Assembly (NCBI GenBank): GCA_902802945.1
Contig: CADCOC010000029.1
Span: 1-61,918, forward strand
Direction of reading: 5' to 3'
Source: an uncultured bacterium
Lineage (GTDB): Bacteria; Verrucomicrobiota; Kiritimatiellia; RFP12; UBA1067
DNA: 61,918 nucleotides
In this document: piece after piece, positions 36,578 to 52,224 of the stretch
Numbering within the stretch: the stretch's first letter is position 1
How the letters are laid out: the number at the start of each line of letters is the position of its first letter
Program-made: the position numbers and the translations under genes
The notes under the pieces: model-generated
What the model saw: the letters and a program-made list of their open reading frames with translations, nothing else
Databases searched by the model: none
Told to the model about the DNA's origin: nothing

Positions 36578-36606
36578 TTGCGGGGAGGGGCGTGTTATGG
36601 TATCAT
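36578..36606 (+). promoter_or_regulatory. Promoter of the caspase-3D gene
   Basis: TTGCGG (36578-36583), a 17-base spacer ending TGG, then TATCAT (36601-36606). The predicted start near 36613 is 2-3 bases before an ATG (36616) and about 50 before the ATG at 36664. Confidence 0.6.
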
Positions 36607-36663
36607 ATTTGCGTTATGAGAATAAAGGATGGAATGGAAGCCGTCAACAAAGGTGGAGAACGA

Positions 36664-39096
36664 ATGAAAAGACACGCATTGTTCGTTGGCGTGAACAACT
36701 ATGAAGACGCTGACATACGCCCGCTTCGGTACTCCGTTCCCGATGCATCTGTCCTTGCAGACCGCTTTAAACGACTTGGGTACAAGACATGGCTATTGTC
36801 CGACCCCACGGGAGCCGAACTTAAAAAAGCCGTTATCAAGTCAGTCAAAGGACTTGGCTTCGGGGACATATTCCTTTTCTTTTTTGCTGGACATGGTTTC
36901 ACGGCTCAGGATGGAGCACACCTGCTTTTTTGCCGTGACGACATGCAGCGGCTTCTTCGTGTAAACGCAGCCGGCGTTAAAGTTGACGCGCTGGAAGCGT
37001 TGACTGACGGCGGAGGGTTTCACCGAGCATTCTTGCTCGATTCGTGTAGGACGGACTGGTTCGTAGGCATGGAGGGGCGTGGCAACGGTATTACGCGCGA
37101 TCTTGATGTCGTGTCTATGCCGAAGTATACGTCGAAATCTGGTAGTTTCTTCCTTTTGCGTTCCTGCGACAAATTTCGGCCCTCACTGGAGTTCGAGGCA
37201 CTTGGACATGGACTCTTTACACAAGGGCTGTTAGATGCGATGGATAACCATGACGTCCGTCTCGCCAATTGCGACACATTATTTGCGACCGCTATCAGAG
37301 TCAAGATGGAGAATCTCCAGCACGCTAACAATAGCGGCGTTCAACAGCGACCTTCCGTAGGTGAATGCAGTGGCCCTGTTTTTTCGCTTTTCGACAATTC
37401 TTTTTTCGCAGATGTAGCGCGAATGGAACGAGAGATTACGAGCGGTGGGGGAGAAAAGAGGGACATAGCATCGGCAGTAGTTGCTCCCATACCTCCACAG
37501 GAATATGATGGGGTAGCCAAGCGACCTGTTGTCACCGTAAGGGATGCTGATTTAGGTTGCAATCTTATTGAAGGAAAAGACTTCCAAATTGAATACGGCA
37601 ACGAGAGTCATGTAGGGATTGGCAACATCCTCATAGTCGGTAAGGGAAAATATAGTGGATTCAAGCCAGTCGTGTTCCAGATTACGCCCCGGAGCATGTC
37701 GAATGTGAAAATTTCCAAGATTTCTCCCGTTAGATACGAGGGGTATCCGATTAAGAATATTGATGTCGTCGTTCGGGACTCTGGGCTTGGGCGTACGCTG
37801 CAACGCGGCAGGGATTACGAGGTGCGTTGCGAGAATGCGGAGAAGCCTGGAGAGGCAACCGTGATTATAGTGGGACGAGGAGTTTATTTTGGGGAAAAAA
37901 CGGCAATGTTTAAAATCCGACCGGGAAAGCAGAAGGTAGATACTCCGGCAAGAGATAGTACCATGTCGCAAATGCGCAGACCATGCCTCTGGAAATGGTT
38001 TGGTACGCACCTTTCCCTAAAGACAATCCTCGTGGTGCTTTTTGTGTCTATGATCGTTGGTGGAGGTTATTACGGGTGGTTTATTTACCAGTCTAAGCGT
38101 ATGTTGGCATATGAAAGCCGTCGTAGAGCGGAAGAATCCCAAGAGCGGGCAGTAGCTGCTGTGGCAGAAATATTTGCACCGGCAGGCTGGACTTCGGCAA
38201 CCAATGAGATGACGATGGCGAACAAAAAGTTTTATTTAGGGAAGTTTGCGCAAGCAGAGCGGCTTTTCTCACGGGCAGCTGTCAAATTTGAGAAAAGCGC
38301 TAAGGATGCGTCTGAAGAGGCGAAGCGCAAGGCGGAAGAGAAACGCATTGCGGACGATAAGGCCAAAGCCAAGGCGGTAGAAGATGTGAGGCGCAAGGCG
38401 GCCAAAGCCAAGGCGGTAGAAGATGCGAGGCGCAAGGCGGCCAAAGCCAAGGCGGTAGAAGATGCGAGGTGCAAGGCGGCCAAAGCCAAGGCGGACGAAG
38501 ATACGAAGCGCAAGGCGGAAGAGAAACATATTGCGGACGAGAAGGAAAAAGTAGTGGAAGCGAAGCCTGCCAAGACGAAATCTGTTGAGATTGTAAAGCC
38601 GTCGGCGAACGCCAAGAATGTCACGTCCGTCCCTTCTGTCCCAAATGTCACGTTGGTAGATTCCCCAATGTCCGATACCGCTTCTGCTCCTAGCAATGCG
38701 CCTCTAATAATCGGCGATACGATTGCGAAGGGTGTGAGTCGGGCTTACATGGCGAAGGATACATGCGAGGCGTACGTGTGGACGCCTCCCACGCGCGTTG
38801 TTGTGACGGGCTACTGCAGTTGTCGGGAATGTCGTGGGGAAAATGCCTCTGATACCACGGTCACAGGATCTGAGGCTCGGCACGGTACGATTGCTGCCGA
38901 CCCCACTATTTTTTCGTATGGCACGCAGTTGAACGTGCCCGGCTACGGAGTTGGCCTAGTTGAGGATACAATACCTAGCGTGAAGGGTGGAAGTATCGCA
39001 ATATGGTTCTCGTCACATGACGAAGCCAAGGCATGGGGTACGCGCGAGATGTCCGTCGCAATGCCACCGAAGACTAAAAGACCCATTTTTCGTTAA
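36664..39096 (+). CDS. Caspase-like protease fused to Ig-like, transmembrane, coiled-coil and 3D domains
   Basis: An 810-residue chimera. Residues 1-250 are a caspase-like (C14) domain: MKRHALFVGVNNYEDADIRP, catalytic His77 in FFAGHGF and catalytic Cys128 in LLDSCRTD. Two Ig/MBG-like units follow (about 285-340 and 355-418: DFQIEYGNESHVGIGNILIVG in part). One TM segment (about 453-475) precedes a charged coiled coil (480-640) with tandem 13-residue repeats. Residues 712-800 are a 3D domain like those of MltA/YabE-type cell-wall lytic proteins (VTGYCSC, GTIAADP, GLVEDT). D746 and D768 are kept; the third Asp position is Ala779. Probable topology: protease inside, 3D domain in the periplasm. 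GGAG supports this start; ATG at 36616 adds 16 residues. Role unknown. Confidence 0.85.
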   Translation: MKRHALFVGVNNYEDADIRPLRYSVPDASVLADRFKRLGYKTWLLSDPTGAELKKAVIKSVKGLGFGDIFLFFFAGHGFTAQDGAHLLFCRDDMQRLLRVNAAGVKVDALEALTDGGGFHRAFLLDSCRTDWFVGMEGRGNGITRDLDVVSMPKYTSKSGSFFLLRSCDKFRPSLEFEALGHGLFTQGLLDAMDNHDVRLANCDTLFATAIRVKMENLQHANNSGVQQRPSVGECSGPVFSLFDNSFFADVARMEREITSGGGEKRDIASAVVAPIPPQEYDGVAKRPVVTVRDADLGCNLIEGKDFQIEYGNESHVGIGNILIVGKGKYSGFKPVVFQITPRSMSNVKISKISPVRYEGYPIKNIDVVVRDSGLGRTLQRGRDYEVRCENAEKPGEATVIIVGRGVYFGEKTAMFKIRPGKQKVDTPARDSTMSQMRRPCLWKWFGTHLSLKTILVVLFVSMIVGGGYYGWFIYQSKRMLAYESRRRAEESQERAVAAVAEIFAPAGWTSATNEMTMANKKFYLGKFAQAERLFSRAAVKFEKSAKDASEEAKRKAEEKRIADDKAKAKAVEDVRRKAAKAKAVEDARRKAAKAKAVEDARCKAAKAKADEDTKRKAEEKHIADEKEKVVEAKPAKTKSVEIVKPSANAKNVTSVPSVPNVTLVDSPMSDTASAPSNAPLIIGDTIAKGVSRAYMAKDTCEAYVWTPPTRVVVTGYCSCRECRGENASDTTVTGSEARHGTIAADPTIFSYGTQLNVPGYGVGLVEDTIPSVKGGSIAIWFSSHDEAKAWGTREMSVAMPPKTKRPIFR
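38362..38517 (+). repeat. Four tandem 39-bp repeats in the caspase-3D gene
   Basis: Units at 38362-38400, 38401-38439, 38440-38478 and 38479-38517 each encode AKAKAVEDARRKA or a close variant. The first three differ by only one or two bases, which implies recent expansion. Confidence 0.88.
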
Positions 39097-39122
39097 CTTA
39101 CTCAAAAACGGAGAAATCAGAA

Positions 39123-39929
39123 ATGAAAACAAAACTGAATGCGATGAAAAACATTGCCATATCTGTTCTATTGCTATGTGGAACACATGCGTATTGTGAG
39201 CCTGTACAAAGTAAGACTCGCGCTTATTACGAGAAGTTGCATGAGGAGGGGTGTGAATTGTGTGATAACGAAAATAGATCTACTGCAAGAGTAATGTGGC
39301 AGGAGGTTGCGCGATGGGCGAATAGTAGGACAAACGATGTTTTACGATATAAAAGCGCAGGTAATCTCTTGAACTTAGATATGGACATGCTTGGTCAGCA
39401 TCGCCAGATAAGTCGGGAAACTTACGACCTCATAATTCAGAGGGTGGAAATACTTGAACAACTTAATAATGTGAGTATCCCTGAATCGGAATGGGGAGCA
39501 ACTAATCCAGAAGCACTGTCACAGTTGGCCAAAGAAGCGAGAGGGGTTTTGGCTAAAGGCCAATCAATAATGGTTTCTGGTTCTGGATCGAGTCCTAAAG
39601 AGAGTGGGAATATGACATATGATTATAATCCATATGTGATGCCAATCCCTCTTGGAATGATCAGAGGGCTGGGAACTGCGGTAATGTCGCCTTGTAATAT
39701 ATTTATGTCATGGCCAGCATCGTTTGAACTGGAAAATGATATATGGTTCGGGCCATTTCCACTTTTTGGGATGGGTGTCGCTAGTTATTACATCGGCAAA
39801 GACGCAGTTGTCGGGATTGTAGACTTCTGTACGTTAGGTTGGGTTGGGAATCGCATTTATAACGAAGACTCTTCGCCTTGGTGGTGGCAGCGGTTTGGTG
39901 GCAAAACTAAAGCGGCGATATTTCGTTAA
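39123..39929 (+). CDS. Secreted protein of unknown function
   Basis: A 268-residue protein with a signal peptide (about 1-25, cut near HAYC-EP). A helical part with Cys residues (GCELCDNE) and many Asn/Arg follows, then from about 165 a Gly/Pro/aromatic-rich hydrophobic part (PIPLGMIRGLGTAVMSP) and a Trp-rich end. The final KTKAAIFR resembles the final KTKRPIFR of the caspase-3D protein just upstream. The gene begins 26 bases after it and has the same low-GC composition, so they are probably cotranscribed. Not recognised. Confidence 0.7.
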   Translation: MKTKLNAMKNIAISVLLLCGTHAYCEPVQSKTRAYYEKLHEEGCELCDNENRSTARVMWQEVARWANSRTNDVLRYKSAGNLLNLDMDMLGQHRQISRETYDLIIQRVEILEQLNNVSIPESEWGATNPEALSQLAKEARGVLAKGQSIMVSGSGSSPKESGNMTYDYNPYVMPIPLGMIRGLGTAVMSPCNIFMSWPASFELENDIWFGPFPLFGMGVASYYIGKDAVVGIVDFCTLGWVGNRIYNEDSSPWWWQRFGGKTKAAIFR

Positions 39930-40227
39930 CGCAGTCGGAATGCTCTTTAGGTGAGAACGAAATGGATATTTCCAGTGAATACCTCTGCGGGGTGCTACCG
40001 TGTGATGTAGCAACGTGGTTAGGGACTTACCACTTGAATCTGATTGACGGTGAGAAAAGGAGGAAAGTTCCAAGACAAGTTTTTTGAAGAGCGTAAATTC
40101 CACCAAAGCTGTGATGGGGTAACATTGGCAATTAGGACGTATGAAAATTGTTGTTAGAAAAAATGACATTCATCGTCTTCATAGGTGTAGATTGAAACAA
40201 ACTAACCTTTAGAAAGGATGATTGGTA
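39930..40227. other. AT-rich intergenic region
   Basis: No supported gene. A 41-codon frame (39962-40087, MDISSEYLCGVLPCDVATW) exists but has no convincing ribosome-binding site or similarity. AGAAAGGA just before 40228 is the ribosome-binding site of the next gene. Confidence 0.4.
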
Positions 40228-40845
40228 ATGAAAGCAAAAGAACAGAAGACAGGTTGGATACGGACAATACTGAATCAGATATTGTTTGTTTGGGCATATT
40301 GGTTTGGCATGTTCCTCGTCTTTATTTTTTGGAACAAGAATGTATTCCAATTTGATTTTGAGAGGGTTAAAGGAGTGGAACCTTGGATCGGGGAAACATT
40401 GTCTATCACCATTCCATTTTCTTGGGTCTCCTTTGCCATTGGGCTTACGCCATTTCTTGTGGGGGCTGTTTGGTGCAGGCGTAATCGTTTCTACCAGAAG
40501 ATGACCCGAGATTCTGCATTGGTCAAGATAATGTGGGGGATTGTCTTGATCCAATCGGTATTGGTGGTCGTTAATGGGTTGTTTGCGCTTTTTTCACATG
40601 ATGGCATAGTGTTACATAAATGTCCGAAGATATTTGCTATGCTTATCCCATTCCTTTTATGGTTTTTTTTCTATTTCCAACATTTTCGTGCCGTAAGAGA
40701 TGTTGCCCGGCAGAAGCGAGAAAGTTATGCAGACTGGCGTGACCGTGTTGGGGCTGAGACGGTGGTGGAAGTCGAATGTGCGCAAATGCCCATGGTCTCG
40801 TTTTCAGTCGCCGGTCTGATTGCCCTTTTTGCACTGGCTGTGTAA
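40228..40845 (+). CDS. Four-helix membrane protein of unknown function
   Basis: A 205-residue inner-membrane protein with hydrophobic segments at about 13-35, 58-82, 101-122 and 132-150, and possibly a fifth at the extreme C-terminus (SFSVAGLIALFALAV). The loop between segments four and five is charged (RAVRDVARQKRESYADWRDR). No family was recognised. AGAAAGGA 9 bases upstream supports this start. It lies between an unknown secreted protein and a Sel1-repeat protein in the low-GC block. Confidence 0.7.
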   Translation: MKAKEQKTGWIRTILNQILFVWAYWFGMFLVFIFWNKNVFQFDFERVKGVEPWIGETLSITIPFSWVSFAIGLTPFLVGAVWCRRNRFYQKMTRDSALVKIMWGIVLIQSVLVVVNGLFALFSHDGIVLHKCPKIFAMLIPFLLWFFFYFQHFRAVRDVARQKRESYADWRDRVGAETVVEVECAQMPMVSFSVAGLIALFALAV

Positions 40846-40866
40846 TGATTTAAAAAGGAGAAGAAA

Positions 40867-41595
40867 ATGATAGAAGACTTTGTGAAGATCGCGAAAACGT
40901 TTGTATGTTTTGCGCTGATGATGACGGCAATCAGGATATGGGTGCTGCCGCATATTGCGAAAACACCTGAACACAAGGCAGAAGTGCCTAAACAGCGTGT
41001 GCTGGACGCCGTGGAGGAGCATTCCGATAGTAATGTAGTTGCCAAAGTGCGCGCAAAAGACGATGGCCTGGACGCCAACAATGGCGCTGAGACATCGGCC
41101 AGAAAATTGGCAGAGGCGATAGAGAGGATACGGAAAAAAGCCGAAGGAGGCGATGCGGAGGAGCAATACACTCTGTCTCTATCCTTTTTACACGGCTATG
41201 GCAACGAGAAATCATGGGATAAGGCATTGGAGTGGCTGCAAAAGTCGGCGCAGGGCGGATATACACGTGCGCAGTGTGACCTTGGGCTGAGATATCTTAT
41301 GGGCAATGAAATACAGGGCAATAGGCTGCCAAAGGACTTAAAACAGGCGCGCTTCTGGCTAGAAAAAGCCGCGAAAGCCAAGGACCCAGAGGTAAAGAAG
41401 GCGGCAGAAAGTGGAATAGGGCGCATAAACCTCATAGAGATTATGGGGGGAGAAAAAGCAATTGAGCAAACTCATAGAGCTATAAAAGCGGCTGAGGCGA
41501 GGGAAAAAATTGAGAAAGCATCTCAATACCGTAGGAACTTTCTTGAAGCTGTTGGCGGTGAGGAGAAATTGAAAGTCTTGAAGGATTCTTTGTGA
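40867..41595 (+). CDS. Membrane-anchored Sel1-repeat protein
   Basis: A 242-residue protein with one N-terminal TM segment (about 9-28) and a charged linker, then Sel1/TPR-like repeats (about 95-185): AEGGDAEEQYTLSLSFLHGYG, in part, and AQGGYTRAQCDLGLRYLMG, each followed by a helix such as WDKALEWLQKSA. Sel1 repeats bind partner proteins, so it may be a periplasmic adaptor. The C-terminal 50 residues are a charged helix. AAAAGGAGAAG is a strong ribosome-binding site, 21 bases after the preceding membrane-protein gene. Confidence 0.8.
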   Translation: MIEDFVKIAKTFVCFALMMTAIRIWVLPHIAKTPEHKAEVPKQRVLDAVEEHSDSNVVAKVRAKDDGLDANNGAETSARKLAEAIERIRKKAEGGDAEEQYTLSLSFLHGYGNEKSWDKALEWLQKSAQGGYTRAQCDLGLRYLMGNEIQGNRLPKDLKQARFWLEKAAKAKDPEVKKAAESGIGRINLIEIMGGEKAIEQTHRAIKAAEAREKIEKASQYRRNFLEAVGGEEKLKVLKDSL

Positions 41596-41710
41596 TTAGA
41601 CCGATATTGCTTTGTTATCGTTTGTCTTAGATGGTGTTTCTTATGCCCAATCTGTCAAAGCTGATAAATGTTTGATGTTTACGGCTAATGTGAGGATGGG
41701 GTGAGACCTT

Positions 41711-41851
41711 ATGGAAATGCAAGAACTGGAAAAGCTAGGTATTCGTAACCTGCACACCGTCTTTGGACGGGGTGTGCGAGGGGAAACGCTCGCGCGCCGG
41801 GGGTTCATAGGGCAGGTGCTTGGATGCGTGAAGGATGCGGGCATCGCCTAG
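41711..41851 (+). CDS. Possible small protein of 46 residues
   Basis: An open frame starting MEMQELEKLGIRNLHTVFGR and ending KDAGIA. It is basic, and more GC-rich than the surrounding DNA. No clear ribosome-binding site; GATGGGG lies farther upstream than usual. It could instead be a remnant of a longer gene. No family recognised. The rest of 41596-41918 shows no gene. Confidence 0.25.
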   Translation: MEMQELEKLGIRNLHTVFGRGVRGETLARRGFIGQVLGCVKDAGIA

Positions 41852-41918
41852 GCAAGATGATACAGGCATGCTGTGAGCAGTTATTGGGAGGTGATAAAAT
41901 GTGGGTCGCAAAATTATA

Positions 41919-41978
41919 CGTGTAAGATTTCGGTAAGGGATAAGAGTATGTGGTTGATCAGGGCATGGCACCCTGATG
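41919..41978 (+). promoter_or_regulatory. Conserved 60-bp leader, copy 1
   Basis: Begins CGTGTAAGATTTCGGTA and ends with a hairpin TCAGGG-catggca-CCCTGA followed by TG. It aligns without gaps to 52247-52306, about 47 of 60 positions by eye. It ends 21 bases before the ankyrin lipoprotein gene. Probably a shared promoter or mRNA leader. Confidence 0.65.
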
Positions 41979-41999
41979 CAAATGTCAAACAGGTCAAGA

Positions 42000-43451
42000 A
42001 TGGACAAGGAAATGGAAATGAATCTGCATAATAAGGCGGCAAGTAGTATTTGGATGCTCTTGTTTGCCATTACGGTGACCTCTGGTTGCAGGTTTACGGA
42101 GGAATGCGATGACGGGCCGTTCGACCTGGAAGAAGCGGTGGGGTTTTGTTGTACTGGTGTTGAGGTTCCTGCTACGCCGCGTACGCAAGAGACGGAACTT
42201 GGGGATGGGTTGCTGGTATCTATTGCGAGCAACGACATTAAGATGGTTCAGTTTTTCCTATTGATAGGCGCTGACGCGAATTACAAGGACGATTTCGGAG
42301 TCACTCCTCTGGGCAAGGCAATTTGCGATACCGACAATGGGCCTAATCCCCAAATTGTCGAGATCCTGTTGAAAAGAGGTGCCGATCCCAGGGCACTGTG
42401 GGGCAACTGCGGCACTACTCCGTTCTTTTATCTTGTCCAGAACAGCACCTCTTTCAAGTCTGGAAGTGCGGTTTTGTCCAACCAAGTGGCAGCGGTGAGG
42501 CTTATGCTGAAGCATGGGGCGGACCCGAACAGGAAGCAGGGATTGTTCCGGCGCTCTTCCTTGGAATATGCCGCCATGCGCAATGGCGACATCGAGCTGA
42601 TCAAGGCACTAGTCGATGGTGGTGCCATCATTACCGACAAAGCGATAGAGGATGCAGAGGATGCCGATATCAGGCAGTATCTGGTGAAAGCCAAAGAAAC
42701 GCAGCAGCGGCAGGTAGCGGGCGGAATCGGCAAGGAGCGCGACGGAGCGGCGAGAGCGTCAAATGAAATACGGACTGCGGTGCATACGCCGCTTTTGACG
42801 AAGATGCTAAATGCTTACGACGCATGGGAGGCTGTTCGCTGGGATTTGTCTAATACGAATTCGTTGGAAACTGCCACCCGGCAACGAATTGCCGCCATTA
42901 AATACATGCGGTATTGCGATGAAGGCATGGACGGCGAAGTGCAGCGTAAGTCGTGGCCGTTCGACGTGGATGCGTTCGAGAGCGGCTTGGCGCAAAAGAT
43001 GGTTTGCGACAAGTACGGGCTTTACTGCGTCAAAGGCGAATACAACGATTATGATGAGGGAATACTGGAAGACGGTAATGTCGCCGTAAAACCATCGATT
43101 CGCTGGATGAATCGCAAGACGGAAGAGTGGGCGACGAATGCGCTTGATGGCGTGTACAGACGACTTGCCAAGGATGAATTGGATCGGATGCTTGATGCGA
43201 AAAGCGTCAATGCCGGCACGTTCTGCTGGGCCATCGGCACGAACGAGTATTTCATAATCCAGAGCGTCGATGATGATCATGATTTTGAGTCCCGTAACTA
43301 CATCTACATGTGTTGGGACGGCAAGTCAGAGCCGGGGGAATGGGATATACTTGTTTCCGTCTTGCCCCCACAAGGGCGAGATGACAGATTTCCCACGCGG
43401 GGACGGGCGCGAGTGCCGCATCCGATCCGCGTTTGGGATTGTGTTGAGTGA
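42000..43451 (+). CDS. Ankyrin-repeat lipoprotein
   Basis: A protein of about 483 residues with a lipoprotein signal (SIWMLLFAITVTSGC). Four ankyrin repeats follow (about 70-230): LLVSIASNDIKMVQFFLLIG, TPLGKAI then IVEILLKRGADPRALWG, AAVRLMLKHGADPNRKQG and LEYAAMRNGDIELIKALVDGG. The C-terminal 230 residues are a globular domain I do not recognise, with many Trp, Asp and Glu. Ankyrin repeats mediate protein binding, so an envelope-anchored binding role is likely. Start by analogy with the lipoprotein at 52332, which has the same 60-bp leader; ATG at 42018 is another choice. Confidence 0.8.
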   Translation: MDKEMEMNLHNKAASSIWMLLFAITVTSGCRFTEECDDGPFDLEEAVGFCCTGVEVPATPRTQETELGDGLLVSIASNDIKMVQFFLLIGADANYKDDFGVTPLGKAICDTDNGPNPQIVEILLKRGADPRALWGNCGTTPFFYLVQNSTSFKSGSAVLSNQVAAVRLMLKHGADPNRKQGLFRRSSLEYAAMRNGDIELIKALVDGGAIITDKAIEDAEDADIRQYLVKAKETQQRQVAGGIGKERDGAARASNEIRTAVHTPLLTKMLNAYDAWEAVRWDLSNTNSLETATRQRIAAIKYMRYCDEGMDGEVQRKSWPFDVDAFESGLAQKMVCDKYGLYCVKGEYNDYDEGILEDGNVAVKPSIRWMNRKTEEWATNALDGVYRRLAKDELDRMLDAKSVNAGTFCWAIGTNEYFIIQSVDDDHDFESRNYIYMCWDGKSEPGEWDILVSVLPPQGRDDRFPTRGRARVPHPIRVWDCVE

Positions 43452-43479
43452 AAGACCGGGAAACGCAAAGGAACGAGCC

Positions 43480-46400
43480 ATGTTGAAGAAGTTGATGATG
43501 ACGGCAGTGATCATTGTCGCCACAATGACGCTCATGTCCGATGAGTGGAATTACGATTCATATACGCATACTGGGTGGTGGTACGATTCTAGTACAGGCA
43601 ATAAATTGTATTACAAAACATATTATGATACAGATTACTATGGATTCTACGGGCAGGGGTACAACATCGAACCTATTTGCATCACTCGTATTGAACTAGG
43701 GCCTTCGGGAGTGCTGACGATTCCGTCATCGTTTGGTGATACGCCAATTTTGAGAATGGAGTCGGGTGCGTTTGATTCGTGTAGTAACCTTATAAAGTTG
43801 ACCATTCCAGATTGTCTTGAAGGCGTGGCTTCTCTTTCTAGTTGTACTAGGTTAACGGAGATAAATGTAAGTTCAAGTAAGTACAACCGTCCAAAACGTA
43901 TCAGTTCGATAAATGGAATTTTATATACGCACTATATGACAATGGAGGGGGATGTTGAAGGTAAATTTCTCTATAAAGTACCACCAGGGTTATCAAACGT
44001 GACGATACCAGACGGTACTGTAGAAATCGCAAATAATGCATTTTCTGGCTGTAACAAGCTTACGAGCGTGACAATACCGAACAGCGTGACGAAAATCAAC
44101 GGAGCCGGTGGTTTTGATACTTGTAGCAGCCTCAGAAAGGTAACGGTGAATCAGTGTGTGTTGGATTCGAACCCATACCAATTCTTCGGAGCGGCTTACA
44201 AAAGTATTACAGAGGTGTCTTTTTCTTCAAATGTTACTAACATTAGTGATCATGCGTTTTCCTATTGCAGCGGGCTCACGAGTGTGACAATTCCGAACAG
44301 TGTGACGAGGATCGGGAGGGATGCGTTTTACAATTGCACTAATCTTACGAGCGTGACGATACCCAATAGCGTAACGGGTATCGGTTATGAGGCATTTAGC
44401 GGTTGCAGCGGTCTTACGAGCGTGACGATACCCAATAGTGTAACGGGTATCGGGGATGGGGCATTTAGCGGTTGCAGCGGTCTTACGAGTATGACGATAC
44501 CCGACAGAGTGAGGCGTATCGGGAATTATGTGTTTTACAAGTGCAGCGGTCTTACGAGCGTGACGATACCCAACGGCGTGACGCTTATTGGGTCCAATGC
44601 TTTTGCTGGTTGTGCCAACCTTACTAGCGTTACGATTCCAGAGGGCGTGACTGAGATTGACTATGGTGCGTTTCAGGGTTGCCATAATTTGAACGTGACA
44701 ATTCCGTCCAGCGTCAAGAGCATTGGTATGTATGCGGTTGCAGGTTGTAACAGCGTGACCATTCCAGATAGCATAATGTACATTCACCCTTATGCGCTGG
44801 AAGGAGTGCATGATGTAACGGTGCCACAATGGGTTCTTGACAAGGGGATTGGCAATGTGTTTGTGGATACCAAAACTGATCAGGATTCCATAACGAACGT
44901 ATCATTTTCCGCGCCCATAACTAGAATAGGTGATAATGCATTTTACAAGCGTAGGGGGCTTAAGAACATGACGATACCCGAAGATGTCATGAGTATTGGC
45001 GAAAATGCATTCTATGACTGTCGCGGACTTGAGGCCGTGACTATTCCTGACAGCGTGACGAGTATTGGGGATTATGCGTTTTACTGGTGTCTCGGATTGA
45101 CAAACGTGACTATTCCCGATGGTGTGATGGCTATCGGTGATTCTGCATTTTGCAGGTGTCTCGGAGTGACAAACGTAACGATGTCCCCTAGTGTGACTAG
45201 CATCGGGGAATCAGCATTTATGCTTTGTCTGCAACTCACGGATGTGGTAATTCCCGATGGAGTGAAGAATATCGGGTACTCTGCATTTTATAAATGCCCC
45301 CTGGGAGGGGATTTGTCGATTCCAAACAGCGTGGTTAACATCGGAGCTTATGCCTTTTTAGGAAGTACAAATCTTACAAGCGTAAAGATTGGCAATCGTG
45401 TGAAATACATTGGTCACAATGCGTTCGGTTCAAGTAACGAAAGGATATACGATAAAATATCCATACCCGGCGTTACGCTCGTGGATGGGTGGATTGTCGA
45501 TACGGAAACCAGCCTTCCGCCAGACATTGACCTGTCTGGTGTACGCGGTTGTGTTGACGGTGGGTTTTGTGCTGCGGATAGCAACGGATTTGCAATATTT
45601 AGGGGGAATCTTTGCAAATATTCGGGCAGTGCAACGGAAGTGACCATACCGTCTGGCGTAACACGCATCTCTGATTGCGCTTTTATCAATTGCACCAACC
45701 TGACTAGCGTAACAATTCCCGACAGTGTGACGAGCATTGGACGTTCAGCGTTTAGCGGTTGCAAGGGTTTGACAAGTGTAATAGGCGGTAATGGAGTGAC
45801 AAGCATCGGAGCTCGGGCATTTTATGACTGTAGCGGACTTTTAAGCGTGAGGATTCCCAGCAGCGTGAAGAGTATCGGGGCGTATGCGTTGAGTTGCTGT
45901 AACGGTCTTATGAGCGTGACGATTCCGGATAGTGTGACGAGCATTGGAAATTCAGCATTTGAGTATTGCAGGGGGCTTGTGAGCGTGGCGATAGGCAATG
46001 GAGTGAAGCGTATTGGGAATAATGCATTCTTATCCTGTACCAATTTGACGAGCGTGACGATACCGAACAGTGTTGTGGAAATTGGGAATTGTGCATTTGA
46101 TGGTTGTTGCAGTCTTAGGAGCGTAGTGATTGGCGATGGAGTCGTTAGCATCGGGAATAACGCCTTTTCCGATTGTCGTGCCCTTTCGAGCGTAATGATT
46201 CCAGATAACGTGAAAGGCATAGGGGATTACGCTTTTTCCGGTTGCAGCAGCCTTACAAGCGCAGTGATAGGTGATGGTGTTAAAATCATAGGATGTTATG
46301 CATTTTCTGAGTGTGGTAACCTTGCGAGTGTGGTGATAGGCGACGGTGTCACAAGTATAGGAAGTTATGCATTTTCTGGGTGTAGCCATCTGACGAGCAT

Positions 46401-49400
46401 GACGATGGGTAACAGTGTTGAAACAATCTGGGATCATGCATTCAGTGGATGCAGAGGATTGGCGGGTCAGTTGACTATACCCGACAGTGTGACGCATATA
46501 CTTGATAGTGCTTTTGCCAGTTGCACCAATCTTTCGGGTGTGACGTTTGGTAATGGTGTGAGACATATTGGTTACGAAGCGTTCTACGGCTGTTGTGGAT
46601 TGACGGGGACGGTGACAATACCTGATAGTGTAACGAGTATAGGGAGTGATGCATTTTCTATCTATCTCGACCAACAGAGTGAACTACAAGCCATATATCT
46701 TCCAAGTTATCTTACGTACTACGGATCCTTACCTCTTACGTACTACGGATCCTTACCTCGTACCCCTTGTTCGGTAATGCACTATCCTGCTACACCACGT
46801 GCACCTTCTGTCGAAAGCGAAAAGCGGACAGTCAAGGTGTCCAATGTTTGGGCAATACAGCAACCTGGGACGAAATGTGTTGGCATCCACTACGCCTTGG
46901 AGGGTACTGGCGGAGGCACATGGGATGTTTCGGTGAAGTTTGCTTGCGAAGGAAAGACCATCAATGCAAGTTCTCTGGACGGTAGCGTGGGTGCTGGAGT
47001 TACTTTGGGCAAGGGATGTTATATTAAGTGGGACGCGGGTGTGGATTGGCCGGGAAAAACAGGCGTGTTTACGGTCACGGTCAAGGCGGGGAATTCGTCT
47101 GCTAAAAGCATGGAGTTCCCTGTTGACACAAGGAGCGGCGGATTCCGTATCGAGGACGTGTCAAGTGCATATTGCAATGGGGCTTATGACGGCGTGGGTG
47201 GCAAGAAGGCGACGTTCCTGAAGGGTGTTCACTGTTCAGTCGATTTCAGCGTGATTGCCGGTTCGGAGGAATATCCAGTTGACTATCTTCTTGTGAATGG
47301 CGTGAGACAGGAGCGGAAGGACGGCTTCACGTACCCCGTCAACATTATCGAGCCTGGGAAGGGGCTTGAGGTTGTAGCCGTGGATAAGACAGGAGTTGAG
47401 ACTCCGCCGTTCCGGGTCAACCTCGACGTCGCTGAACTGCCAATTAAGTGGCGTGTATTGACGGGAGCGCAGGTGCAGATAGAAGAGGACAAGGAAGCTG
47501 GTAAGGTGCTGTATTTTGCCTCAGACTACAATACGCTGTGGCTATTCGAGGCCTGTAAGGATGTATTTGAAATCGCGGGGAAAGAGTATAGCCTGGATCT
47601 TCTGCCACAACTTCGTTTCCCTGAGAGCTTTGATTCGGTTACAGCGCAGTACAGGATAGGCACGACATTTGGTGTTAAGGGCGATGCTATCCATGCCTAT
47701 GGTGGGCAGTCTACAGTTGATGCCTTGAAAAAGCAGAAGCTCGGCAAGTTCATCGGCGTCGATTTATCGTTCGATCTCGGTGGCGCATCCGTTTACGAGT
47801 GGAATCCGTACCGCCTCGATTATGACAGGACAGGTAGCGACATTACCGCGAAGATGTCATACGAGGCATCACTGAAATACCGTTTCCCTGCATTCCCGGT
47901 CGCATACGTGGCGGTGAGTGCCTTGGGAAGCTTGGAGGACAAGATTCAGAATGTCGGTGGCGGCAATGGTTGGCGTTTCGATTTGGACTGTAATCCGATC
48001 ATAGCCTTGAGGGGTACGGTAGGCGCAGGGGTTGAAGGCGTGTGCGTGGAGGGATATGTTCAAGGTGGCATACGATTGAAGGCTATGGTCGATGATGCCA
48101 TTGGTGCTAGTGAATTTAGTGGGGCTTTGCAATATCTATGGGGGATACGAGGTGTCTTTTTGGGGTTTGAGCGTAAATTCGAGGCTGGGGACGAGAAGTG
48201 GTTTCTCGGTGGTCCTACGAAGCGCAAGACGGCAAGGTTGATGTTCGCGGCGGCGCCGGATGGCGGGACTGCGGGCGAGTACGCTCTTATTTCCCGCGAT
48301 TACGGCGGACGCGCTGGAGCGCGTCCCATCCGTCTGATGGCGGCGCCGTTGAAGGGAACCGGCGGTACATCGCTGGGTGACGGCTATCCGAATCCGGCGC
48401 CGTCGATTGCCGCGAACGGAAAGTCGGATCACCTCGTCTATCTGCGTGACAACTCTGGGCGTTCTGCCGCCAACCGCACGGAAGTGGTATATCGTTCCGG
48501 TGAAAGTAACGTGTGGGATGCTGCAACTGCTGTGTGGGACGACGGCACTGCTGACTTCATGCCGAAGGTCGCCGCCGCGTCCGACGGCACGGTGTTCGCG
48601 GCGTGGGCGAACGCGAAGCGGGTACTTGCCGATTCCGACCCGTTTGAGACGATGTGCAAGAGCCTTGAAATCGCCGTGGGCGTCCGCGACGCGGGGACTG
48701 GTGCGTGGGTTTGCACAAACCTGACGGACGACGCCGCGCTCGACATGGCGCCGGTGGTGCGGACTGCGGCTGACGGCTCGGCTGCGGTCGCGTGGGTGCG
48801 CAATGCGTCTGGTGAGTTCTTCGCGTCCGCCGACAAGCCCGCCGAGATCATGCTCTCGACGTACGGCTGCGGCACATGGTCTGCGCCGGTAAAGGTGGCC
48901 GATGCAGGTGCGCTCGTTTCGCTCGACATGGCGTGGAACGGGACGAACGCCGAAGTGGTTTGGGCGAAGGATGGCGACGGCGATTTCGTGACGGGTGGCG
49001 ACCGCGAGGCGTGGAGCGTAACCGTGGCAAGCGGCACGGTCGGCGCGGCGTCGCGACTTTCCGCTGATGGCGTTGACGCGACGAGTCCGCGCGTATGGTT
49101 CGACGATGGCGGCACGGCGCACAGGGTGTGGCTTGCGGGCAACGTGGTGACGGCGGACGGCGGCGTGGCGATTGCCGGCGCGGACGCGCTTTCACTGCCT
49201 GAGGACTTCAAGTTGATTTCGCGTCCCGATGGCGGGGCGACGCTCGCGTGGTGGCGCATGGGGAAGGGTGTCCTTGGCGGCGAACTTGTGAGCGCGGCGT
49301 ATGATGCGGCGAAGGGAACTGTCGGCGATGTGCTTGTGCTTGCGGCTTCCGCTGACACGCAGGAACGCGCCATAGCGGGCGTAGTGGGAAGCGACGGTGC

Positions 49401-52224
49401 GTTGCGGCTTGCGTACGAGTCGGTGTCCGTGTCAACCAACGCGCAGGGCATGGTGGAGTTTGGCGCGGTGGAGCTGAAGACGCTCCGCCGCGAGCCGGGC
49501 ATCGACCTCGGAGTCTCGGCGGTCGCGTTCGCGGATGAGCCGGAAGTGGGCGAACTGGCGGAGGTGTGCGTGACCGTGGCGAACCGTGGAGGAGCGGAGG
49601 CGAAGGACGTCGAGGTGTGGCTGTGGTTCGGGGAAGGGGATGACAAGTCGCTCGTGTCTGTGGCAGCGACGAACGTTCTGCCGCTGTCCTCCGCGACGGT
49701 GGCGATACCGTGGTACGTCGGCAGCGGCCTGACGAACATAGCGTTTACGGTGGAGGTCGATCCGCAGGGGCGCGTGGCGGACGTTGAGAGGTCGGACAAC
49801 GTCATGGTGTGGCGTCCAAACCTCAGAGCGCCGGTGCTGTCGTTCCGCGACGTGCAGTGTGTCAATGTTTCGGAGACGAAGCGGCTGATTCGCGCAACGG
49901 TCCACAACGACAGCATCGCGCCGCTGGAGGCGGGCGCGACCGTAAAGTTCTGGCGCGGCGAGGTGGGCGGCACTCTGCTCGGCACCGACACCATCGGCAT
50001 CGTCACGGCCGGCAACAAGGGAGAATGGGGCACGGCGCTCGAGCTGGACATTGCGGAGATTCCCGGTTTCACCGACGGCGAGCGCGTGGTGATTGAACTT
50101 GTGGCTGGGGCGTCGCATCCCCTTGCCTCGGTGAGAGTGGCGCTTGAACTTGCGCCTGTTGTGTGGGTGGTGGCGTTTGACGCTAACGGCGGCGCGGGGA
50201 CGATGGCAAATCAGTTCTTTACGAATGGCGTGGAACGGGCGTTGTCTACCAATGTGTTCATCTGTGCGGGTTGCACGTTCGCGGGCTGGGCGACGACCGC
50301 GACGGGCGAGGTCGTCTACACGGACGGCCAAGTCATTTCGGTGTCAACTGACATGACGCTTTATGCGAAATGGAATGAGATACCAGGCATTACGCCAGGC
50401 CCGGAACCTACGCCGGAACCGGAGCCTACGCCCGGCCCAGAACCTACGCCCGGCCCGGAGCCCGGCCCGGAACCTACGCCGGAACCAGATCCGGAACCAA
50501 TCTGGACAATCGAGAACGGCGTTTTGAAGTGGGTTGACTTGAACGGCTGTACGGAGGTGACGATACCTGATGGTGTGACGAGTATAGGAGATTTTGCATT
50601 TTGTAATTGCAGCAGTCTCATGAATGTTATGATACCTAGTAGCGTGACAAATATTGGCAATTATGCATTCTGCAATTGCAGCATGCTTATGGATATTACG
50701 ATACCTAACAGCGTGACGAGTATAGGGGATTCCGCATTTGACAAATGCAGTAGACTGGCGAACGTTACAATACCTAACAGCGTAACTAGTATAGGAGATT
50801 CTGTGTTCTGGAATTGCAGTAGTCTCACGAAAGTTACGCTATCTGACGGAGTTACGGGCATTGGGAATTATGTATTCTACAACTGTACCAGCCTTATGAC
50901 CGTTACTATGTCTGACAGTGTAGCGAGTATAGGTAATTATGCGTTCTACTGTTGCAGTAGTCTTGTGAGTGTTACGATACCTCACGACGTAGCGAGCATA
51001 GGTGATTCTGCGTTCTGCGATTGTAACAGTCTCACGAACATAACGTTTGCCGGAAATGCACCGGAAATGGGTGCCGCCGTATTTGAAGGTATCGGCTCAA
51101 ACTGTCGGATATACGTTCAGAGCGGTTCGACTGGCTGGGGCGTCGATATCCCGGGCGTATGGCATGGGATGCAAATTGGGTATATTAACCTGCAGCCAGA
51201 ACCTCAACCGGAACCGCAACCGGATCCGGTGGTGACGCAGCAGGTGTGGACGGTGTCGTTCAACGCGAATGGTGGCGTGGGGAACATGGCGGTACAGACG
51301 TTCACGAACGGCGTGGAGGAAGTGCTGAGCGCGAATGCATTCACGCGGCTCGGATGGGACTTCGCCGGATGGGCAACGAGCGCCGACGGCGAGGTGGTGT
51401 ACGCCGACGGACAGCGGATTGCGGTCACGTCTGGGCAGACGCTGTACGCGCAGTGGACGGAAGTCGTTGCTGGACACCTTGATACAGGTTTCGCCAAGGC
51501 GCAGACTGTACATGGTGCGTTGTACGGCAGGGACGGCGTGCCGGTGGGGACCGTAAAGGTGAAGGTGGGCAAGATCAACAAGAAGAAGGGTACGGTCAAG
51601 ATTTCGGCTACGGCTACGCTGCTGGTCAACGGCAAGGCGAAGAAGGTCACGGCGAAGGCGGTAAACGTTGTGTTGGACGCGACGGGGCGCGTCCCTCCCG
51701 TGAAGGTTGCGTTCAAGGATCCAATTGGGGAGATGGAGTTTGAGATGGTGACGGACGGAACGTTCACGCTGAAGAACGGCAGTTATGTGATGGTGGCGGC
51801 GAGCGTGGGTGGGAACTGGACCCGCGCAGGAGCGCGGGTGTATGTGGACGTGGGCGGCGGTCGCGGGGCGACCGCCCTACCAGAGGGGACGATTGAGGAA
51901 TTGCTCCCCGATGGGGAGCTGGTGATTCCGAAGGCCGGGAAGTGGTCGTTCGCGAAGGCGACGGGCGTGAAGTACGCGAAGGACAAGAAGACGAAGGCGC
52001 TCAGTCTCGTCATCGACACAAAGAAGGGGACGAACCGCTCCGCGATGAAGCTCACGTACACGCCGAAGACGGGTGTCTTCAAAGGATCGTTCAAGATTTA
52101 CGCGATTCAGGGGGGGAAGCTGAAGAAGATCACGGTCAAGGTGATTGGCGTGGTCGTTGACGGTAAGGGGGCGGGTAGCGCCGCAGGGCCGAATGGATTA
52201 CGCTTTGCCGTGACGGTGGAGTAG
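43480..52224 (+). CDS. Giant BspA-type leucine-rich-repeat surface protein
   Basis: A 2914-residue secreted protein (signal peptide about 1-20). Residues about 70-1065 hold more than 30 BspA/LRR_5 repeats of about 23 residues (LTSVTIPNSVTSIGDSAF-x-x-C pattern). Then come Ig-like and beta-rich parts (about 1110-2000), including a propeller-like region (SDHLVYLRDNSG), a CARDB-like domain (about 2010-2105), an InlB/Flg_new repeat (VAFDANGGAGTM, about 2228-2300) and a Glu/Pro linker. Seven more LRRs (about 2350-2530), a second InlB repeat (VSFNANGGVGNM) and a Lys-rich C-terminal beta domain end it. BspA-like proteins mediate adhesion and are frequent in host-associated bacteria. AAGGA supports this start. 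Confidence 0.93.
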   Translation: MLKKLMMTAVIIVATMTLMSDEWNYDSYTHTGWWYDSSTGNKLYYKTYYDTDYYGFYGQGYNIEPICITRIELGPSGVLTIPSSFGDTPILRMESGAFDSCSNLIKLTIPDCLEGVASLSSCTRLTEINVSSSKYNRPKRISSINGILYTHYMTMEGDVEGKFLYKVPPGLSNVTIPDGTVEIANNAFSGCNKLTSVTIPNSVTKINGAGGFDTCSSLRKVTVNQCVLDSNPYQFFGAAYKSITEVSFSSNVTNISDHAFSYCSGLTSVTIPNSVTRIGRDAFYNCTNLTSVTIPNSVTGIGYEAFSGCSGLTSVTIPNSVTGIGDGAFSGCSGLTSMTIPDRVRRIGNYVFYKCSGLTSVTIPNGVTLIGSNAFAGCANLTSVTIPEGVTEIDYGAFQGCHNLNVTIPSSVKSIGMYAVAGCNSVTIPDSIMYIHPYALEGVHDVTVPQWVLDKGIGNVFVDTKTDQDSITNVSFSAPITRIGDNAFYKRRGLKNMTIPEDVMSIGENAFYDCRGLEAVTIPDSVTSIGDYAFYWCLGLTNVTIPDGVMAIGDSAFCRCLGVTNVTMSPSVTSIGESAFMLCLQLTDVVIPDGVKNIGYSAFYKCPLGGDLSIPNSVVNIGAYAFLGSTNLTSVKIGNRVKYIGHNAFGSSNERIYDKISIPGVTLVDGWIVDTETSLPPDIDLSGVRGCVDGGFCAADSNGFAIFRGNLCKYSGSATEVTIPSGVTRISDCAFINCTNLTSVTIPDSVTSIGRSAFSGCKGLTSVIGGNGVTSIGARAFYDCSGLLSVRIPSSVKSIGAYALSCCNGLMSVTIPDSVTSIGNSAFEYCRGLVSVAIGNGVKRIGNNAFLSCTNLTSVTIPNSVVEIGNCAFDGCCSLRSVVIGDGVVSIGNNAFSDCRALSSVMIPDNVKGIGDYAFSGCSSLTSAVIGDGVKIIGCYAFSECGNLASVVIGDGVTSIGSYAFSGCSHLTSMTMGNSVETIWDHAFSGCRGLAGQLTIPDSVTHILDSAFASCTNLSGVTFGNGVRHIGYEAFYGCCGLTGTVTIPDSVTSIGSDAFSIYLDQQSELQAIYLPSYLTYYGSLPLTYYGSLPRTPCSVMHYPATPRAPSVESEKRTVKVSNVWAIQQPGTKCVGIHYALEGTGGGTWDVSVKFACEGKTINASSLDGSVGAGVTLGKGCYIKWDAGVDWPGKTGVFTVTVKAGNSSAKSMEFPVDTRSGGFRIEDVSSAYCNGAYDGVGGKKATFLKGVHCSVDFSVIAGSEEYPVDYLLVNGVRQERKDGFTYPVNIIEPGKGLEVVAVDKTGVETPPFRVNLDVAELPIKWRVLTGAQVQIEEDKEAGKVLYFASDYNTLWLFEACKDVFEIAGKEYSLDLLPQLRFPESFDSVTAQYRIGTTFGVKGDAIHAYGGQSTVDALKKQKLGKFIGVDLSFDLGGASVYEWNPYRLDYDRTGSDITAKMSYEASLKYRFPAFPVAYVAVSALGSLEDKIQNVGGGNGWRFDLDCNPIIALRGTVGAGVEGVCVEGYVQGGIRLKAMVDDAIGASEFSGALQYLWGIRGVFLGFERKFEAGDEKWFLGGPTKRKTARLMFAAAPDGGTAGEYALISRDYGGRAGARPIRLMAAPLKGTGGTSLGDGYPNPAPSIAANGKSDHLVYLRDNSGRSAANRTEVVYRSGESNVWDAATAVWDDGTADFMPKVAAASDGTVFAAWANAKRVLADSDPFETMCKSLEIAVGVRDAGTGAWVCTNLTDDAALDMAPVVRTAADGSAAVAWVRNASGEFFASADKPAEIMLSTYGCGTWSAPVKVADAGALVSLDMAWNGTNAEVVWAKDGDGDFVTGGDREAWSVTVASGTVGAASRLSADGVDATSPRVWFDDGGTAHRVWLAGNVVTADGGVAIAGADALSLPEDFKLISRPDGGATLAWWRMGKGVLGGELVSAAYDAAKGTVGDVLVLAASADTQERAIAGVVGSDGALRLAYESVSVSTNAQGMVEFGAVELKTLRREPGIDLGVSAVAFADEPEVGELAEVCVTVANRGGAEAKDVEVWLWFGEGDDKSLVSVAATNVLPLSSATVAIPWYVGSGLTNIAFTVEVDPQGRVADVERSDNVMVWRPNLRAPVLSFRDVQCVNVSETKRLIRATVHNDSIAPLEAGATVKFWRGEVGGTLLGTDTIGIVTAGNKGEWGTALELDIAEIPGFTDGERVVIELVAGASHPLASVRVALELAPVVWVVAFDANGGAGTMANQFFTNGVERALSTNVFICAGCTFAGWATTATGEVVYTDGQVISVSTDMTLYAKWNEIPGITPGPEPTPEPEPTPGPEPTPGPEPGPEPTPEPDPEPIWTIENGVLKWVDLNGCTEVTIPDGVTSIGDFAFCNCSSLMNVMIPSSVTNIGNYAFCNCSMLMDITIPNSVTSIGDSAFDKCSRLANVTIPNSVTSIGDSVFWNCSSLTKVTLSDGVTGIGNYVFYNCTSLMTVTMSDSVASIGNYAFYCCSSLVSVTIPHDVASIGDSAFCDCNSLTNITFAGNAPEMGAAVFEGIGSNCRIYVQSGSTGWGVDIPGVWHGMQIGYINLQPEPQPEPQPDPVVTQQVWTVSFNANGGVGNMAVQTFTNGVEEVLSANAFTRLGWDFAGWATSADGEVVYADGQRIAVTSGQTLYAQWTEVVAGHLDTGFAKAQTVHGALYGRDGVPVGTVKVKVGKINKKKGTVKISATATLLVNGKAKKVTAKAVNVVLDATGRVPPVKVAFKDPIGEMEFEMVTDGTFTLKNGSYVMVAASVGGNWTRAGARVYVDVGGGRGATALPEGTIEELLPDGELVIPKAGKWSFAKATGVKYAKDKKTKALSLVIDTKKGTNRSAMKLTYTPKTGVFKGSFKIYAIQGGKLKKITVKVIGVVVDGKGAGSAAGPNGLRFAVTVE
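46711..46758 (+). repeat. Perfect 24-bp tandem duplication in the giant LRR gene
   Basis: 46711-46734 and 46735-46758 are identical and encode LTYYGSLP twice. The duplication keeps the frame and lies just after the last repeat of the first LRR block. Confidence 0.9.
48307..48326. repeat. REP-like palindrome in the giant LRR gene
   Basis: GGACGCGC, loop TGGA, GCGCGTCC: a perfect 8-bp stem in coding sequence. Confidence 0.65.
51830..51849. repeat. REP-like palindrome in the giant LRR gene
   Basis: ACCCGCGC, loop AGGA, GCGCGGGT: the same stem length and NGGA loop as 48307-48326. Confidence 0.65.
51866..51886. repeat. REP-like palindrome in the giant LRR gene
   Basis: GGCGGTCG, loop of five bases, CGACCGCC, followed by CTACCAG. 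It encodes GGRGATALP and lies only 16 bases after the preceding palindrome. Confidence 0.65.

Follow-up and report, generated by a model that had tools for sequence, protein, structure and literature searches.

A single gene in the window, by which is meant the whole stretch of 61,918 nucleotides analysed here (contig CADCOC010000029.1 of an uncultured Kiritimatiellia bacterium of the rumen), joins a caspase-like protease to a domain of the type found in peptidoglycan-lytic proteins, and the question it raises is what role such a protein would play in the cell. The initial annotation proposed that a cytoplasmic protease could be coupled across the membrane to wall cleavage or wall sensing, possibly as a self-lysis device. 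The answer preferred here, at a probability of about 0.5, is a modular type II (N-inside, C-outside) transmembrane caspase with a catalytically dead, putatively wall-binding 3D ectodomain, whose proteolytic activity would be triggered by clustering.

Gene organisation and genomic context

The gene occupies positions 36664..39096 of the + strand as a single ORF encoding 810 amino acids, running from an ATG at 36664 to a stop codon ending at 39096 with an unbroken frame. A ribosome-site-like GGTGGAG lies directly upstream of the ATG, and the MKR start of the protein lines up with the starts of its paralogues when these are aligned. Taken together, the ORF, Pfam matches and structure model give the order caspase domain, two Ig-like units, transmembrane (TM) helix, TPR-like stretch, coiled coil and 3D domain. 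PADLOC returned only its generic caspase model for this gene, and no close relatives were found when the full-length protein was used as a single query against the genome contigs. A first structure prediction from the single sequence was poor (mean pLDDT 38) and was replaced by an alignment-based model (49 rows, mean pLDDT 64.6), in which the caspase core and the 3D region of the full chain are confident but confidence is poor in the linkers and in the Ig-like part.

The source genome amounts to 5.8 Mb in 300 contigs. The upstream neighbour of the gene is a surA-like PPIase on the opposite strand. The GC3 of the caspase-3D gene is ~0.47-0.64 as against 0.83-0.86 in neighbouring core genes, with a base composition that is roughly even along its length. 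It lies in a block of genes (36600-43500) with a GC3 of ~0.4-0.6, flanked by core genes at 0.83-0.86; this block also takes in the next few downstream genes and was possibly acquired. The adjacent downstream gene (39123-39929) encodes an apparently exported protein of 268 residues that is nearly unique to the source genome, and it was rejected as a conserved partner, there being, its own copy aside, one weak match in 98 genomes. Further downstream, 43270-52224 encodes a BspA-LRR surface protein of 2984 residues that contains List_Bact repeats and also matches CARDB.

The caspase domain

The N-terminal caspase (C14) domain comprises residues 1-250 (36664..37413, + strand), with Pfam C14 covering residues 2-232 (E-value 3e-18; 66.7 bits against a curated cut-off of 21.4). 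The proposed dyad of His77 and Cys128 is intact, these residues lying in GHG (76-78) and DSC (126-128) motifs, and G76, H77, G78, D126 and C128 are invariant in all 16 aligned family members, which were chosen by homology; a wider alignment was left out of this figure because its rows had been picked by a motif filter. The caspase core has a pLDDT of ~80-96 over most of its length in the alignment-based model, and a fold search with it gave the MALT1 paracaspase as a match (Z 22.3, rmsd 2.9, 204 residues aligned), so that the caspase-like nature of residues 1-250 is borne out by both sequence and fold. Viral relatives of this domain, and of the 3D domain, were used for alignment only.

The nearest paralogue, C164:2088, is 74% identical in the caspase domain. 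Pairwise Nei-Gojobori estimates between the two (dN 0.19, dS 1.7) show constraint only roughly, as dS values are near saturation both here and in the 3D comparisons given below. The first strand of the caspase begins at residue 3 and no N-terminal signal peptide is present.

The Ig-like units, membrane helix and coiled coil

Two tandem units at residues ~273-417 (37480..37914, + strand) align to each other with 33% identity over 76 residues (E-value 3e-14) and have predicted strands. Searches of these units against Pfam and the PDB gave no match. The earlier claim of two such units is upheld as regards the repeat; the label Ig-like, which reflects the repeat pattern and predicted strands, is to be read as provisional. 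The pattern is presumably of the YDG/MBG type.

A single TM helix is predicted at residues ~450-474 (38011..38085, + strand). The best hydrophobic window, residues 450-468 with a mean of 2.0, is that of a moderate single TM segment, with basic residues on either side, and the model places a helix at 452-503. It is followed by a stretch at residues ~499-542 (38158..38289, + strand) that reads as half-TPR-like, a similar segment being present after the TM helix of a LysM-bearing caspase of a sister genus. Residues 518-630 (38215..38553, + strand) are modelled as a long helix or coiled coil. The suggestion that this coil is expandable proved apt, as Tandem Repeats Finder (TRF) detected within it an in-frame 39-bp unit present 4.1 times with 94% match (38361-38518), the sole repeat tract between 38100 and 38800; it should be mentioned that KAE-rich repeats such as these readily yield coiled-coil predictions.

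A repeat tract within a coiled-coil stretch, in a genome assembly fragmented into 300 contigs, is a place where two genes could have been misjoined, and the fusion would then be an artefact of assembly. Against this, the frame stays open through the join and composition is alike along the gene. The nearest identities in the same genome are only 62% for the 3D part and 74% for the caspase, and neither part can therefore be a duplicate of sequence on another contig. A misjoin is accordingly very improbable.

The 3D domain and its lost catalytic aspartate

The C-terminal domain at residues ~711-802 (38794..39069, + strand) is of the 3D (MltA/YuiC-like) type, as had been claimed. Pfam 3D covers residues 742-798 (E-value 3e-6), scoring 27.8 bits in the full protein and 32.7 bits in the isolated fragment against a curated cut-off of 23.8, and the sequences of the YuiC crystal structures match residues 698-800 (E-value 2.5e-12). 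Among NCBIfam models, the one nearest to the C-terminus is that of the stationary-phase survival protein SpsC, with a score under its cut-off. Residues 711-803 have a pLDDT of ~90 over most of their length in the alignment-based model; the fold-search lists were filled by caspase chains, and the double-psi barrel of this part is thus predicted from similarity to YuiC together with the confident model.

In YuiC, D129, D151 and D162 correspond to D261, D297 and D308 of MltA, of which D162/D308 is the catalytic acid (PMC4499186). The protein described here retains D746 and D768 but has an alanine, Ala779 (GCA, 38998..39000, + strand), at the catalytic position, confirming the reading of the third Asp as Ala; of the three Asp residues conserved in MltA-like lytic transglycosylases, it thus lacks the catalytic one. 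That Asp is present in YuiC and in all 25 of the other same-class 3D domains that were aligned, while 13 phage relatives have Asp (12) or Glu (1) there. GCA is two base changes from either Asp codon, and this speaks against a one-base sequencing error at Ala779. Other positions of the domain have also changed: in place of DTG it has DTI with Pro as the next residue, and CR replaces the CC motif. This Pro aligns with YuiC S154, a contact of the -1 sugar, so glycan binding may be weakened too.

Whether this domain could still cut the wall bears directly on the self-lysis proposal, according to which an activated caspase would free or switch on a lytic 3D domain against the cell's own wall. YuiC/MltA-type 3D domains are lytic transglycosylases (PMC4499186), two of the three Asp residues and the Thr and Tyr of the 3D motif are kept here, and metacaspase-amidase fusions have been tied to autolysis in a survey cited more fully below (PMC3501461). 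The lost residue is, however, the catalytic acid itself, the DTG and CC positions are altered as well, and the predicted topology puts the 3D domain and the caspase on opposite sides of the membrane. For the first two of these reasons the domain probably does not act as a lytic transglycosylase of known kind, and a self-lysis device, weakened as a proposal despite the retention of D746 and D768, is quite unlikely. The same sequence grounds make it more probable that the domain senses or binds the wall than that it cuts it. In this regard, the D308A mutant of MltA was crystallised with bound chitohexaose (PMC4499186).

A domain that has lost its activity could also be a remnant without function, left by a domain swap, with the caspase acting alone. 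The loss of several motif residues, the occurrence of the fusion in a single genome and the atypical GC3 (~0.5 as against 0.83-0.86 in core genes) are what such decay would leave behind. Yet the 810 codons contain neither a stop nor a frameshift, the 3D region is confidently modelled, and dN is low relative to dS in comparisons of the 3D domain with lipoproteins of the genus (dN ~0.26, dS 1.3-2.7, pairwise Nei-Gojobori). The domain thus looks constrained, with part of that signal stemming from the lipoprotein branch, and decay is an unlikely account, if somewhat less so than self-lysis.

The same genome has two further 3D genes, one lipoprotein-like (C26), which is 62% identical over 90 residues to the caspase-linked domain, and one membrane-anchored (C79). 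Most matching relatives also carry standalone 3D proteins at one or two places. All three Asp residues are at the aligned positions in the standalone proteins that were read, and the 3D domain of the caspase fusion therefore differs from apparently functional copies in the same cell.

Caspase paralogues and relatives

Of the 16 C14 matches in the source genome, 15 fall on contigs C35, C128 and C164, and some are cut by contig ends. These contigs (loci L051, L052 and L054) contain clusters of caspase paralogues whose C-termini vary, with FGE/lectin, Sel1, double kinase with HTH, and zinc ribbon domains. The paralogues of the same genome share the N-terminal His/Cys caspase and diverge after residue ~250, with C-termini comprising a zinc ribbon with FGE-sulfatase/lectin, Sel1, two kinase domains with HTH, and others. 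C164:2088, for example, carries FGE in place of the Ig-TM-3D region, its similarity stopping near residue 250. Several of the paralogues have neither a TM helix nor an ectodomain.

The FGE regions of two caspase paralogues (L051:3618-3820 and L054:3638-3840) differ mostly at codons ending in C, and this variable stretch is followed by more than 60 near-identical bases that continue past the stop, resembling a retroelement-diversified region. A likely diversity-generating retroelement is present on contig C54 (L204:4048-7706), with a variable protein, a small gene resembling an accessory gene, and a frame for reverse transcriptase, the start of which reads like an Asn-rich template repeat. Diversification of the FGE regions by a retroelement is a tentative reading at most, as third-position C is common there and the template of the C54 element, the one such element found, is mismatched.

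Beyond the source genome, two of the searched relatives have the caspase at the search threshold, and the nearest named relatives bearing it are rumen Kiritimatiellae MAGs. In a sister genus, one gene (L089:12531-15209, contig C89 of genome G053) encodes a caspase, zinc ribbon, TM helix, TPR-like stretch, LysM and FGE, and this is the nearest parallel to the caspase-3D plan. Further caspase arrays turned up when 388 genomes across the phylum were searched. Several of the loci read have the order caspase, TM helix and BspA-LRR or Sel1, and in L249 a KAE-rich coiled coil like that of the caspase-3D protein lies between the TM helix and the LRR. Others combine the caspase with several TM helices or with TIR, an example of the latter being the C-terminal TIR of L252 (G468:C214), from a distant relative.

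The phylum thus has a modular caspase family with a constant N-terminal caspase and exchanged C-terminal domains, to which the paralogues on C164, C35 and C128, the LysM-FGE protein of G053 and an LRR protein of G270 all belong. Several same-genome, sister-genus and phylum members share with the caspase-3D protein the plan of one TM helix followed by an ectodomain. They differ from it in that their C-termini are FGE/lectin, Sel1, kinase, LysM, BspA-LRR or TIR. No 3D domain was found next to a caspase in the 50 caspase loci scanned, and among the loci and literature covered the pairing of C14 with 3D appears to occur only in this one genome.

A proposed wall-facing caspase receptor

A cytoplasmic caspase with a wall-facing C-terminal domain is the best reading of the topology because the protein lacks a signal peptide and relatives follow the same plan. 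Of the coupling across the membrane that was suggested at the outset, the link to the wall is thus retained, with sensing or binding in place of cutting. In the model proposed, the caspase, predicted to be active, would be the constant output and the C-terminal half an exchangeable ectodomain. The helix of ~113 residues (~17 nm if straight) would bring the 3D domain to the peptidoglycan layer, where, its catalytic Asp having been lost, it would most likely act as a non-cutting binder of glycan strands or of fragments of the wall. Damage to the wall, a shift in its occupancy or clustering of the protein on it could then gather the caspase domains, and the gathered caspases would cleave targets in the cytoplasm in response to stress or in defence.

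The loss of catalysis is also compatible with a plain anchor, in which the coil and the inactive 3D domain would do no more than tether the caspase to a fixed place on the wall and the trigger would be cytoplasmic, from the Ig-like region or a partner protein; the paralogues that lack both TM helix and ectodomain are in keeping with a trigger of this sort. However, the exchange of LysM, LRR, Sel1 and 3D at the same place suits the sensing of different ligands better and favours sensing over anchoring, leaving an anchor alone rather doubtful, though the least improbable of the alternatives considered. A more specific form of the preferred receptor reading, which we advance tentatively, is that a domain which formerly cut peptidoglycan now serves a transmembrane caspase as its ligand-binding ectodomain, and that this protein belongs to a group of caspase receptors with differing ligands. 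If so, an autolysin domain has been recruited as the wall sensor of a protease switch, the Kiritimatiellae caspases form a receptor-like, mix-and-match family (LysM, LRR, Sel1, FGE, 3D), and the trigger of bacterial caspases becomes testable with defined ligands.

Comparison with known systems

MALT1 paracaspase, the best fold match, also has a caspase domain followed by Ig-like units. It differs in being eukaryotic and without a wall domain, and its Ig-like units have no detectable sequence relation to those described here, so the shared order is probably convergent. With YuiC/Sps and MltA, the likeness is confined to the 3D sequence region, including two of the three Asp residues and the motif Thr and Tyr, the differences being the alanine at the third, catalytic Asp and the fusion to a caspase and TM helix.

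In the two-gene EACC1-caspase systems (System 4 of Kaur et al., 2020, PMC7159879), a constant N-terminal caspase is combined with as many as 50 different C-termini; TM helices are found in at least a third of the caspases, and some have an extracellular PBP domain. The protein described here resembles these in its constant caspase, the variety of C-terminal domains in its family and the frequency of TM helices. Unlike them, it has no adjoining EACC1 gene, the 5′ adjacent position being taken by the surA-like PPIase, and its caspase scores 45.1 bits against the EACC1-type caspase model, below the cut-off of 140. A search of the source genome for EACC1 gave no match, as did the control genomes. 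On account of the missing adjoining gene and the low model score, it fits the general kind and is not an EACC1 member.

Fusions to putative peptidoglycan-binding (11) or Amidase_2 (4) domains are recorded among the prokaryotic metacaspases surveyed by Asplund-Samuelsson et al. (2012, PMC3501461), where caspase/wall-domain fusions were already tied to autolysis. One metacaspase in that survey has an extracellular CHASE2 domain and was read with N-in/C-out topology. What these have in common with the caspase-3D protein is a caspase fused to a domain that is wall-related or of extracellular receptor type, along with a possible link to cell death; their domains are of other families, and no C14 and 3D pairing was met in the part of the survey covered here. 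The initial annotation, which knew of no such pairing, thus agrees with the loci and literature covered as to C14 with 3D and was too broad as to caspases with wall domains, fusions with peptidoglycan-binding and Amidase_2 domains having been known since 2012. What is new is the pairing of a C14 caspase with a 3D domain that is itself catalytically dead.
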